A DNA stretch of 64,000 nt, from positions 1-64,000 of the forward strand of contig NZ_AZVB01000013.1 of NCBI RefSeq assembly GCF_000513995.1, in the 5' to 3' direction. Position numbers and translations under genes: made by a program. Shown piece by piece: positions 11,701 through 61,632 of the stretch. The stretch comes from Pseudoxanthomonas sp. J35 (GTDB lineage Bacteria; Pseudomonadota; Gammaproteobacteria; Xanthomonadales; Xanthomonadaceae). Position 1 is the first letter of the stretch. Every line of letters begins with the position of its first letter. Under the pieces are notes generated by a model. That model was not told the origin of the DNA and made no database searches. It was given only the letters and a program-made list of their open reading frames with translations.

Positions 11701-11852
11701 CTTCGGACGGGGCCGCCGCCCCAAGGGGGTATGGCGCATCGCGCGGTTCCGCCGTCCGTGTCTCCAACGCGCGAGCGCAGGCCATCCATGGCCTGCTTGT
11801 GCCAAACCCCCTTGGGACGACGTCCTCGGGGTGCGTTGAGGCCGGGGGCTTC
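11701..11852 (+). repeat. Three-way-junction structured element, copy 1
   Basis: An approximately 152-bp element opening CTTCGGACGGGGCCGC. The outer stem is CCCAAGGGGGT (11720-11730) with ACCCCCTTGGG (11806-11816), extended inward with mismatches. Hairpin A has CGCGCG arms (11740-11745 and 11768-11773) around a 22-nt loop beginning GTTCCGCC and ending CTCCAA. Hairpin B has GCAGGCCA and TGGCCTGC arms (11777-11796) around a TCCA loop. The A loop and B arms are the exact reverse complement of those in copy 2. I do not recognise a named family. Confidence 0.8.
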
Positions 11853-11917
11853 TATGGCGGCGCGAAAGAGCGCGTCATCCCAATGGCCGCGGCGCCCGTT
11901 GATATGCCAGCCGCCCG

Positions 11918-11994
11918 GTAGAGTCGGGCTTGCCCGACTCCCACGCCCGATGTCCCAGCGCCGGCGAGAAGCAGCGGGGCGAGCCCCGCTCTAC
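11918..11994. repeat. GTAG-type REP doublet
   Basis: GTAG followed by AGTCGGGC-TT-GCCCGACT (11918 onward, to 11940) and, 32 bp later, AGCGGGGC-GA-GCCCCGCT followed by CTAC (11973-11994). The GTAG ends face outward and the unit is 77 bp, exactly the geometry of the doublet at 292-368. It lies between two inverted copies of the three-way-junction element. Confidence 0.8.
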
Positions 11995-12034
11995 AACAGA
12001 CGCGTCCAGCCCGCTCAGAGGGGGGAGCAAGAAC

Positions 12035-12183
12035 GAAGCCACGACCCGAACGCACCCGAAGACGCGGTAGCGCGGGGGTATCCCGCAAGCAGGCCATGGA
12101 TGGCCTGCGTTCGCGCGTTGGAGACACGGACGGCGGAACCGCGCGATGCGGGATACCCCCGCGCTGCCGCGGCTCCGTCCGGA
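12035..12183 (-). repeat. Three-way-junction structured element, copy 2 (inverted relative to copy 1)
   Basis: The outer stem pairs 12064-12086 with 12148-12170 over 23 bp with a single T-G mismatch; the core is GCGGGGGTATCCCGC with GCGGGATACCCCCGC. Hairpin B is GCAGGCCA/TGGCCTGC (12089-12108) with loop TGGA, the complement of TCCA. Hairpin A has CGCGCG arms (12112-12117 and 12140-12145) around a 22-nt loop that is the exact complement of the copy 1 loop. The distal flank GCGGCTCCGTCCGGAG matches the opening flank of the other copies in reverse. Confidence 0.8.
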
Positions 12184-12238
12184 GCCGGCCAACGGAAGGA
12201 CACTCTTCCACCTGGCGGACCGCGGTGGTGCGGGAGGT

Positions 12239-12264
12239 GGCTGGCGCGTGGCGACGCGCCAGCC
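12239..12264. repeat. Palindrome with GGCTGGCGCGT/ACGCGCCAGCC arms
   Basis: An 11-bp perfect stem with a GGCG loop about 100 bp upstream of fumC. It is related to the palindrome at 479-500 next to the other REP doublet, so it may be a small dispersed repeat rather than a local regulatory hairpin. Confidence 0.6.
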
Positions 12265-12366
12265 GTCGCCAGCGCCGCGAGCGGAACCAACCGTGCCACC
12301 GCGCGAAACAGCGCCTTGCACCCGTAGCGGTATGCTCGCGGCGATTCCTCCACGCCGGAGACGGCC

Positions 12367-60000: not shown

Positions 60001-60524
60001 CGCTGGAAACGCTGGAAGAGGCGATCCGCAAGATCGACCGCGAGACCCGCGGCCGCTTCAAGGACACCTTCGACCGGGTCAACTCCGGCCTGCAGGCGCT
60101 GTATCCGCGCCTGTTCGGCGGCGGCCACGCCTACCTGGAGCTGACCGGCGAGGACCTGCTGGACACCGGCGTGGCGATCATGGCGCGCCCGCCCGGCAAG
60201 CGCGTGTCCAACATCTCGCTGCTGTCCGGCGGCGAGAAGGCGATGACCGCGGTGGCGCTGGTGTTCGCGATCTTCCAGCTCAACCCGGCGCCGTTCTGCC
60301 TGCTGGACGAGGTGGACGCGCCGCTGGACGAGGCCAACGTGGGCCGCTTCACCAACATGGTGAAGGAGATGAGCGAGAAGGTGCAGTTCCTGTTCGTCAG
60401 CCACAACAAGGCGACGATGGAGGCGGCGCACCAGCTTTCGGGCGTGACCATGCGCGAGCCGGGCGTGTCGCGCCTGGTCAGCGTGGATCTGGAGGAGGCC
60501 GCGCGCCTGGCTGGCGCGGCCTGA
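57021..60524 (+). CDS. smc: Chromosome segregation protein SMC
   Basis: 1167 residues, full length. Walker A GPNGCGKS (31-38) is in the N-terminal head. Two long coiled coils flank a hinge around 520-640 (GWENAVESALGQLIEG). The signature LLSGGEKAMTAVAL and Walker B FCLLDEVDAPLD are in the C-terminal head. It forms the condensin ring with ScpAB, which are not in this window. It is followed 94 bp later by zipA, the usual Xanthomonad order. Confidence 0.97.
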   Translation: MRLSTIKLSGFKSFVDPTTLHLPTNMTGVVGPNGCGKSNIIDAVRWVMGESSASRLRGDSLTDVIFSGSAARKPVSQATVELIFDNSDHTISGEYAAYNEISVKRTVSRDGQSQYYLNGTKCRRKDITDLFLGTGLGPRSYSIIEQGMISQIIEARPEDLRIYLEEAAGISKYKERRKETETRIRHTRENLDRLNDLREEVDKQLEHLRRQARQAEQYQALAAERKVKDAEWKALQFRALDQQLQALREKLMQEETKLEQIIAGQREAEREIETGRVRREEAAEALNAAQAEVYKVGGVLARIEQQIQHQRELASRLHQARDEAASALEELDRHIGDDRQKLEALQASVEESEPRLEQLREDDVFKQEALREAEAALSDWQQRWEAHGREAAEASRAGEVERTRVDYLDRQALEADRRREALTAERAGLDLEALAEAFEQAQIQHETQKAALDTLNEQLDARKQAVSTLQEQQRTAQAELAEVRKQAQAARGRLSSLETLQQAALGQEQGAAVAWLKARGLDSGARVGERLSVEEGWENAVESALGQLIEGVLVEAPETLVEALADLGEGRIALVSAEEGDAGFAPTSLAARVRGPLAIRRLLARLHAAEDLAEARRLLPQLGEGDSIITRAGERLGDGWVRVSRQGAARQGALLREREIQALRATIEELQQREAGLEERLAQQRDQLLAAEQQREDAQRQLYLAHRSVSELAGQLQSQQGRMDTARQRIERIENELAQLAETLDNSREQAREARSRLEDAVVRMGDLEATRQALEAERRRLTEARDLARDAARASREATHALALALESQRTQVASLIQSLQRMDAQRGQLDSRLGELAAQLATGDSPVQALEAEHQAALAERVRADRALGEARSVLEGIDNELRAFEQTRHQRDEQSLAQRERISQLRLEQQALQMKAEQIVQAITEEGLVLEDVVNTLPDVADPREWEQAVGQIEARMRRLEPVNLAAIHECGEAEQRKQYLDSQNADLTAALETLEEAIRKIDRETRGRFKDTFDRVNSGLQALYPRLFGGGHAYLELTGEDLLDTGVAIMARPPGKRVSNISLLSGGEKAMTAVALVFAIFQLNPAPFCLLDEVDAPLDEANVGRFTNMVKEMSEKVQFLFVSHNKATMEAAHQLSGVTMREPGVSRLVSVDLEEAARLAGAA

Positions 60525-60618
60525 CCCGGGGACAAACGGCGGGCCGCGGCCGGGGTTTTTCCGCGGCCGCCGCTCGTGACATGCTTGCGGCTTCTGGATC
60601 CCGGGGGAGAGGCGTTAC

Positions 60619-61368
60619 ATGTCGGACAAGGACCTGCTGCGGATCGGCATCCTCGTCGTCGGCCTGCTGTTGCTGGCGGCGATGTGGTTCTTCGGTCGCA
60701 ATCCGCGCAAGGAACAGCAGGGCCGTCGCCGCGAGTCGCGCGAGTCCCCGGCGATGACGCCCGAGTACGGCCGGGTGCGCCGCGAGCCGTCGCTGGAGGA
60801 GGCCGCGGCGGCGGAAGGCGAAGCGGACTACGGCGGCGAGGGCGTGACCCAGCCGGAGCTGGGCCTGCCGGCGGAGCCTGCGCGCAACAGCGACCTGGGC
60901 CGCCGCGAGAGCCAGGACTTCGACAAGATCGTGTCGCTGTACGTGGCGGCGCGCGCGGGCAGCGTGCTGCGTGGCGAGGACATCGTGGTGGCGGCGGAGA
61001 AGACGGGCATGGTCTTCGGCCACATGAACGTGTTCCACCGGCTGCTGGAGGGACATCCGGAGCGCGGGCCGGTGTTCAGCATGGCCAGCATCATGAAGCC
61101 GGGCAGCTTCGACATGGCGACGATCCGCGAACTGGAGACGCCGGCGATCGCGTTCTTCCTGACCCTGCCGGCGCCGGTGCCGGCGCTGGATGCGTGGGAG
61201 AAGATGCTGCCGACGGTGCAGCGCATGGCCGAGCTGCTCGACGGCGTGGTCCTGGACGACAGCCGCAACGCGCTGGGCCGCCAGCGCATCGCCCACATCC
61301 GCGACGAGCTGCGCGCCTACGACCGCCAGCATGAAGCCCCGCCGCTGACCAAGGCCCCGCGCTGGTAA
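60619..61368 (+). CDS. zipA: Cell division protein ZipA
   Basis: 249 residues: an N-terminal membrane anchor (LLRIGILVVGLLLLAAMWFF), a charged and disordered linker (about 30-95) and a C-terminal ZipA domain (from about 100) with VFGHMNVFHRLLEGH. It tethers FtsZ to the membrane at the division ring. In related genomes ligA follows directly; here a repeat strip and an aminotransferase gene intervene. Confidence 0.93.
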   Translation: MSDKDLLRIGILVVGLLLLAAMWFFGRNPRKEQQGRRRESRESPAMTPEYGRVRREPSLEEAAAAEGEADYGGEGVTQPELGLPAEPARNSDLGRRESQDFDKIVSLYVAARAGSVLRGEDIVVAAEKTGMVFGHMNVFHRLLEGHPERGPVFSMASIMKPGSFDMATIRELETPAIAFFLTLPAPVPALDAWEKMLPTVQRMAELLDGVVLDDSRNALGRQRIAHIRDELRAYDRQHEAPPLTKAPRW

Positions 61369-61395
61369 TCCCCCGCTGCGCTCCCGCCGCCCCTT

Positions 61396-61417
61396 GTAGA
61401 GCGGGGCTTGCCCCGCT
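61396..61417 (+). repeat. GTAG-type REP, single copy
   Basis: GTAG followed by AGCGGGGC, TT and GCCCCGCT; identical to the palindrome at 292-313. No inverted partner lies within the next 80 bp. Confidence 0.8.
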
Positions 61418-61484
61418 CCAGGCCAACCGCGGCAGCAAGGGCAACAGCACGGCAACGGCACAGCAACAGCGTTGTGCTGGCGGT

Positions 61485-61632
61485 CTTCGGACGGAGCCGC
61501 GGCAGCGCACGGGTATCGCGCATCGCGCGGTTCCGCGTCCTGCTCCAACGCGCGACCGCGGCACATCCATGTGCCGCTTGCGCGATACCCGTGCGCTACC
61601 GCGTCTTTCGGCGCGTCCGGATCGTGGCTCCG
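61485..61632 (+). repeat. Three-way-junction structured element, copy 3
   Basis: Opens CTTCGGACGGAGCCGC. The outer stem pairs 61499-61521 with 61580-61602 over 23 bp with one mismatch; 17 bp of it (GCGCACGGGTATCGCGC) are perfect. Hairpin A has CGCGCG arms (61524-61529 and 61549-61554) around a 19-nt loop starting GTTCCGC and ending CTCCAA. Hairpin B has GCGGCACA/TGTGCCGC arms (61558-61577) and loop TCCA. Stem B differs from copies 1 and 2 at three positions, each matched by a change on the other arm. Confidence 0.8.

Follow-up and report, generated by a model that had tools for sequence, protein, structure and literature searches.

A dispersed three-way-junction element in Pseudoxanthomonas, probably a divergent, high-copy branch of TwoAYGGAY

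When the stems of a repeat change and their pairing does not, what is being kept, and on which strand? The question is raised by the first 64,000 nucleotides of contig NZ_AZVB01000013.1 of Pseudoxanthomonas sp. J35 (this whole stretch is the window below), which hold three copies of an element of about 150 bp. A sequence-only reading of the window proposed that the structure is what is maintained, either as a transcribed RNA or as folded single-stranded DNA serving mobility; it could put no known family name to the architecture. We call the strand of that reading the CATCC strand and its opposite the GGA strand. Our answer, which we hold with somewhat better than even confidence, is that the copies are dispersed, high-copy structured RNA genes or segments, a divergent branch of the Rfam family TwoAYGGAY (RF01731), encoded opposite to the strand that was first read.

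The fold and its many copies

The proposal that structure is what is maintained is borne out by compensatory changes, both within the source genome (an assembly of 3.24 Mb in 33 contigs) and across genera. In an alignment of 39 copies from the source genome 97.1% of the cells are paired, and both sides have changed at 16 of the 40 pairs. The covariation score is reached by none of 500 shuffles, and pairing falls to 29-47% when the partners are slid. Across genera, 56 copies show changes on both sides at 38 of the 40 pairs, with 92.0% paired against 36-44% in the slid control, and all five covariation measures lie above the shuffles; this alignment was fitted to the model, which favours the result. 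The loop of one arm, arm B, is kept across genera while the stems turn over. Other copies lacking compensatory changes would have undone the original proposal; they were examined for this and the proposal survived.

The fold is a three-way junction made of a long closing stem and two arms. All three copies can be read directly in the window with the fold claimed for them, one of them inverted. Copy 1 (11699-11856) and copy 3 (61483-61635) lie on the + strand in the original orientation, which puts their putative RNA on the - strand; copy 2 (12031-12186) lies on the - strand, and its putative RNA, the GGA strand, would be + on the wobble asymmetry described below. A covariance model built from 39 full copies of the source genome (R1) matches copies 1 and 3 on the + strand at 150.8 and 160.5 bits and copy 2 on the opposite strand at 180.3 bits. 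From sequence and fold, the outer stem of copy 2 pairs 23 nt at 12064-12086 with 12148-12170 (both +), including one U.G pair. It encloses hairpin B (arm B; 12089-12108, +) and arm A with its CGCGCG stem (12111-12146, +). Hairpin B carries the apical CATGGATG at 12095-12102 (CANGGAUG), with GGA at 12098-12100, and arm A has GGA at 12120-12122, 12128-12130 and 12135-12137. A small terminal hairpin, GGCTCCGTCCGGAGCC, follows at 12171-12186 (+), on the 3' side of the putative RNA.

The CGCGCG arms of hairpin A, the TCCA loop of hairpin B and, for copies 2 and 3, an outer stem of 23 bp with a single mismatch were all described correctly, except that this mismatch, C.A, is a U.G pair on the opposite strand. 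Copy 1 belongs to closing-stem subtype II, with a CCCCAAGGGGG stem, and has the 11-bp perfect stretch CCCAAGGGGGT/ACCCCCTTGGG; hairpin B of copy 3 differs at three positions, each compensated. Folded as single strands against 200 shuffles, copies 2 and 3 have z values of -6.28 and -7.65, and copy 1 only -2.29.

The three copies are a small part of those in the genome, where we place about 70. Copy 2, searched against the source genome by blastn, has 40 matches at E <= 1e-33; R1 has 118 at E <= 1, with antisense echoes among the weaker ones. Our working set is 73 placements in 58 clusters (74 at E <= 1.4e-7, less one antisense duplicate), which fall into two closing-stem subtypes with several alleles per arm. 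Among sampled genomes of the family R1 finds the element at E <= 0.001 in 32 of 149, from 14 of 54 genera, with at most 20 candidates scored per genome, so that copy counts there are lower bounds. Copies also occur in Luteimonas, Lysobacter and Thermomonas records. A second model built from the 56 copies across genera (R2) matches 13 of 200 genomes of the order at E <= 1e-4, two of them from another family with sequences that read as the same architecture, and only 2 of 274 genomes of the class, both from the source genus. Plasmids and phages gave no match with the queries used. Exact-pattern matches in Nitrospirota, Thermodesulfovibrio, Desulfarculus and other unrelated records (14 of 110 loci) were not counted; R2 was tried on seven, and only L286 gave a weak match, at E 0.0091.

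The strand that probably folds, and its likely kin

The strand on which the element was first read is probably the wrong one. Most non-Watson-Crick pairs of the closing stem are A.C on the CATCC strand, which makes them G.U on the GGA strand. Simple arm-against-arm alignments of 39 copies from the source genome give 66 A.C against 22 G.T, and 94 copies from 40 other genomes give 130 against 17. Because copies within one genome share descent, wobble was also counted by genome: A.C is in excess in 34 of the 40, G.T in none, and six are tied, where a few named records could coincide with other genomes counted. Leaving out the source genus, the figures become 31, none and six. Selection on a transcribed GGA strand would account for the asymmetry, and we think it highly probable that the GGA strand is the one that folds.

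On this strand the loops become recognizable. The hexaloop at the end of arm B is ANGGAU, with a C-G pair closing it (C-A-N-GGA-U-G). The loop columns are nearly invariant: on the CATCC strand the 56 copies give A 54, T 55, C 56, C 56, a variable position (A 45) and T 55, which read on the GGA strand as A-N-GGA-U with a variable N. Arm A has GGA in its tip and in an internal loop. Of 96 copies from other genomes, 93 have the motif CANGGANG at least once on the GGA strand and 4 have it on the CATCC strand. In predicted GGA-strand folds at least three GGA are unpaired in 36 of 39 source-genome copies and 42 of 80 others, and the median distance from the first to the last unpaired GGA is 36 and 37 nt respectively.

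These loops lead to TwoAYGGAY, which was listed in 2010 from human gut, Gammaproteobacteria and Clostridiales (PMC2864571), was predicted to bind CsrA, and had a function still called unknown in 2014 (PMC4333381). The idea that no named family fits is not supported, for in relatives the GGA strand resembles this one. Of 20 RF01731 loci, R2 overlaps 19 when matches at E <= 0.1 are counted and 10 with the limit at E <= 0.001, every time on the opposite strand. In locus L058 of a relative, RF01731 matches within the element on the GGA strand at 37.5 bits (E 0.013), below its gathering cut-off of 43 bits; the family belongs to clan CL00106, shared with rsmX. The apical AYGGAY loop is found on arm B, in the 56-copy loop columns read on the opposite strand. 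For the second hairpin, CANGGANG occurs twice or more in 47 of the 96 copies from other genomes, and many source-genome copies have CAGGAC. A crude sequence pattern for tandem G.A pairs is present in 0 of 39 source-genome copies and 13 of 80 others. RF01731 is itself multi-copy: three genomes from other families hold 15, 10 and 14 matches. It is matched at E <= 0.01 in 32 of the 149 family genomes, above cut-off in 5, and in 23 of 369 genomes of the class. In the open-access literature we found no description of TwoAYGGAY as a dispersed repeat. The possibility that the element was already catalogued, which the sequence-only reading had set as its own refutation, holds in part: TwoAYGGAY loci overlap it in relatives, and the source-genome copies fall below the model. 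On sequence grounds we take the element for a divergent variant of TwoAYGGAY with a high copy number, and we regard the kinship as very probable. One 6.2 Mb genome of the same family (G138; loci L352, L379, L383, L387, L391, L395 and L399) has 48 RF01731 matches, mostly core-only and mostly sub-threshold.

GGA is the recognition motif of CsrA/RsmA, and the median GGA span of the element falls inside the 10-63 nt over which a single CsrA dimer can bridge two sites (PMC7652899). RsmE binds ANGGAN hexaloop hairpins, and the consensus from in vitro selection (SELEX) is RUACARGGAUGU (PMC7652899). The source genome has one csrA match, as expected. We infer that the GGA strand is transcribed. It would fold as a three-way junction with GGA-bearing arms, each junction would offer two or more sites to a CsrA/RsmA dimer, and the many copies could jointly titrate RsmA or recruit it locally. 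On this view the element would be an RNA of the TwoAYGGAY kind, able to dock CsrA/RsmA bivalently, whose copies have spread in the manner of a repeat. That the putative RNA binds CsrA/RsmA seems to us fairly probable; that it acts as a titrating decoy is a tentative suggestion which we put a little below even. The widest version is doubtful: a CsrA-decoy RNA module would have turned into a multiplying repeat of dozens of copies, its bivalent RsmA docking junctions lying tail to tail with gene ends and sometimes in head-to-head pairs, the repeat load would set the level of free RsmA, and TwoAYGGAY overall would be such a repeat family across Gammaproteobacteria.

Several observations weigh against the reading of the element as a TwoAYGGAY RNA encoded on the GGA strand. 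Some concern the kinship. Rfam searched at lax E-values over five source-genome loci gives nothing near threshold over the element and no RF01731 match, and source-genome copies have no RF01731 match at E <= 0.01, let alone a gathering score. The match in L058 is the sole one at E <= 5 among 11 loci of relatives, and the R1 and RF01731 lists, of 32 genomes each, have only 8 genomes in common. Overlapping loci with few shared genomes imply that the two models meet in intermediate members and that the extremes miss each other. Others concern the strand and the covariation. Over all core helices of the cross-genus alignment, in which arm A aligns poorly, A.C (37) and G.T (26) do not differ significantly. 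The small terminal hairpin favours the CATCC strand, with G.T 35 and A.C 0 in the source genome and 65 and 5 across genera. Of 33 copies folded, only 21 have the lower minimum free energy on the GGA strand; in the other 12, which include two of the three window copies, the CATCC strand is more stable. Free energy does not settle the choice of strand. The closing-stem asymmetry would also fit a GGA strand folding as single-stranded DNA. Within the source genome one covariation measure, the count of pair types, does not stand out, since 182 of 500 shuffles come up to it. The rest concern transcription and binding. At most sites the GGA strand is antisense to the nearest co-oriented gene, and simple consensus scans and T-run searches of the flanks of 39 copies found no conserved promoter, GC dip, sigma70 excess or T-run terminator on it. 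The arm-A tip is CAGGAC and not ANGGAN in many source-genome copies. Dozens of copies are unlike CsrB or RsmZ genes. A very stable structure, finally, might be unfavourable for CsrA binding (PMC7652899).

Turnover, gene ends and the alternatives

The alternative that survives best is that the element is mobile DNA. The GGA strand would fold as single-stranded DNA, in which G.T pairs are also tolerated, and its loops and stems would be protein-DNA signals recognized by an HUH-type enzyme, RAYT or TIRYT-like. The copies are indeed dispersed and they do turn over. At the purB-fumC site, searched for in 17 Pseudoxanthomonas genomes and found in 16, five genomes have a pair (the source genome included), two have a single or damaged copy and nine have none, and the carriers differ in alleles and spacers. 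Several element sites also differ between the source genome and P. suwonensis J47. This turnover at orthologous sites suggests spread via recombination or a mobiliser. Inverted pairs recall REPINs and the TIR families of Stenotrophomonas (PMC3733652), and the source genome has a single RAYT-like Y1 gene (G000:C9:27217-27543), with no element beside it. A Y1_Tnp match, however, is missing from 13 of the 32 genomes that carry the element, while 83 of the 117 that lack it do have one. The element also does not flank any of the 31 Y1 loci examined (best R1 E 0.25), only 8 of which are in genomes that carry it. Four aligned sites showed no clean target duplication, and the intergenic sequence between close species is too reshuffled for clean empty sites to be defined. 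The CsrA-like loops would have to be a coincidence. RAYT or TIRYT as the mobiliser found support neither in the distribution of Y1 nor in its flanks. Of the two options first offered, then, folded single-stranded DNA finds little in its favour and transcribed RNA is the better one; mobile DNA we consider unlikely.

A second alternative keeps the CATCC strand and makes the element a structure of the 3' untranslated region. The upstream gene would read into it, and the long stem would block exonucleases or end transcription, much as a large repetitive extragenic palindrome (REP) might. Placement is what speaks for it. With genes called by a simple codon-based caller, 30 of 54 source-genome clusters lie between convergent genes, 21 between tandem and 3 between divergent ones, and none inside a called gene. 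The baseline of 164 gaps of at least 100 bp (from the window and 400 kb of the same-genus genome G136, element-holding gaps included) has 23 convergent, 88 tandem and 53 divergent. The element lies at a median of 150 nt after the stop codon. For copies that stand alone, the closer neighbour at 17 of 21 convergent sites is the gene sharing the orientation of the CATCC strand, and the CATCC orientation agrees with the genes at 13 of 17 tandem sites; the gross orientation counts, 54 to 11 in the source genome and 19 to 8 at 19 loci of other genomes, are partly automatic in convergent sites. The copies in which the CATCC strand is the more stable count on the same side. Against it, every one of the 34 informative genomes has a closing-stem asymmetry that points to the GGA strand, and we know of no function for the loops of the CATCC strand. 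Orientation bias is also unclear at RF01731 loci of four other genomes, where 17 of 30 are tail to tail by rougher gene calls. A location bias towards gene ends is, moreover, shared by REPs in general (PMC3733652). We judge a 3' untranslated structure quite improbable.

Seen from the GGA strand, the same placement is mostly tail to tail with the nearest gene, the 5' side towards the larger gap. All ten mixed two-copy clusters run plus then minus on the CATCC reference, which is head to head for the GGA strand, and one further mixed cluster is plus-minus-minus. Pairs of RF01731 loci are head to head in G597 (3 of 3) and G690 (4 of 4) and face each other in G138 (10 of 11).

The weakest alternative is a passive repeat, in which gene conversion or repair templated on a hairpin keeps the palindromic arms alike and compensatory changes need no function. 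It can point to the few alleles per helix in the source genome and to copies interrupted by or recombined with other repeats. It is very improbable: the arm-B loop is conserved across genera despite stem turnover, and correction between arms would not make A.C outnumber G.T in every one of the 34 informative genomes.

Other repeats adjoin the element. The spacer between copies 1 and 2 holds a REPIN-like GTAG hairpin pair (11918-11994), outside the element and identified from its sequence and the GTAG repeats described in PMC3733652; GTAG hairpins like it lie near many other copies. A second repeat (GCGCCGGGAATGAA ... GGCGCGTCGCCACGCGCC) breaks several copies at differing points, as if inserted, and is seen near 3058 in L039, near the element in L030 and L038, and at about 12238-12284 in the window. 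On the 3' side of the GGA strand, GCAACR/GCAAAG hexamer runs border the element in 23 of 39 source-genome copies by a crude pattern (for example at 61435-61475 in the window), and none of the 39 has them on the other side. The short direct repeat GGCTTCG (CATCC strand) bounds the element at both ends and is too constant for a target duplication. At Rfam gathering thresholds the window gives only a cspA thermoregulator RNA (43093-43402), just above threshold.

Comparison with known systems

A divergent, high-copy branch of TwoAYGGAY would be a large natural data set, with covarying copies, evidence for the folded strand and a gene-end location. It would also let one ask directly whether repeats in bacteria can act as sponges, spread over the genome, for a global regulator; if they do, a genome may be scattered with CsrA/RsmA decoys. 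There is a warning in it as well: where a repeat is seen as palindromic DNA, the strand chosen for reading it may be the wrong one.

Four known systems come near the element. The sponges CsrB/CsrC and RsmX/Y/Z, which are the products of one or a few genes, likewise carry several GGA motifs in loops and single-stranded parts, whereas the element is a compact three-way junction in dozens of dispersed copies for which no promoter or terminator was found. RsmU of Xanthomonas campestris, from the same bacterial family, is also an RsmA-binding RNA and comes from a 3' untranslated region; as described in PMC7694677 it is a single locus, said to be limited to Xanthomonas and to have no Rfam homologue, and it is by this description that we set it apart. 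The GTAG REP/REPIN and TIRYT-associated TIR families are like the element in being intergenic, often paired, high in copy number and often downstream of genes (PMC3733652). A GTAG REP is a palindrome of 20-40 nt with a GTAG tag; the element is a three-way junction of about 150 nt, has no conserved GTAG at its ends and no linked Y1 that we could find, and the Stenotrophomonas TIR families are compared by their description. TwoAYGGAY comes closest. In both, an external stem encloses two hairpins, and the AYGGAY-type loop is shared for arm B and perhaps, in some copies, for arm A; TwoAYGGAY falls in the same places and on the same strand in relatives, and it is multi-copy elsewhere in Gammaproteobacteria. 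The element differs from it in its long covarying closing stem, in the extra GGA of the arm-A internal loop, and in an arm A that often has less than a full AYGGAY.

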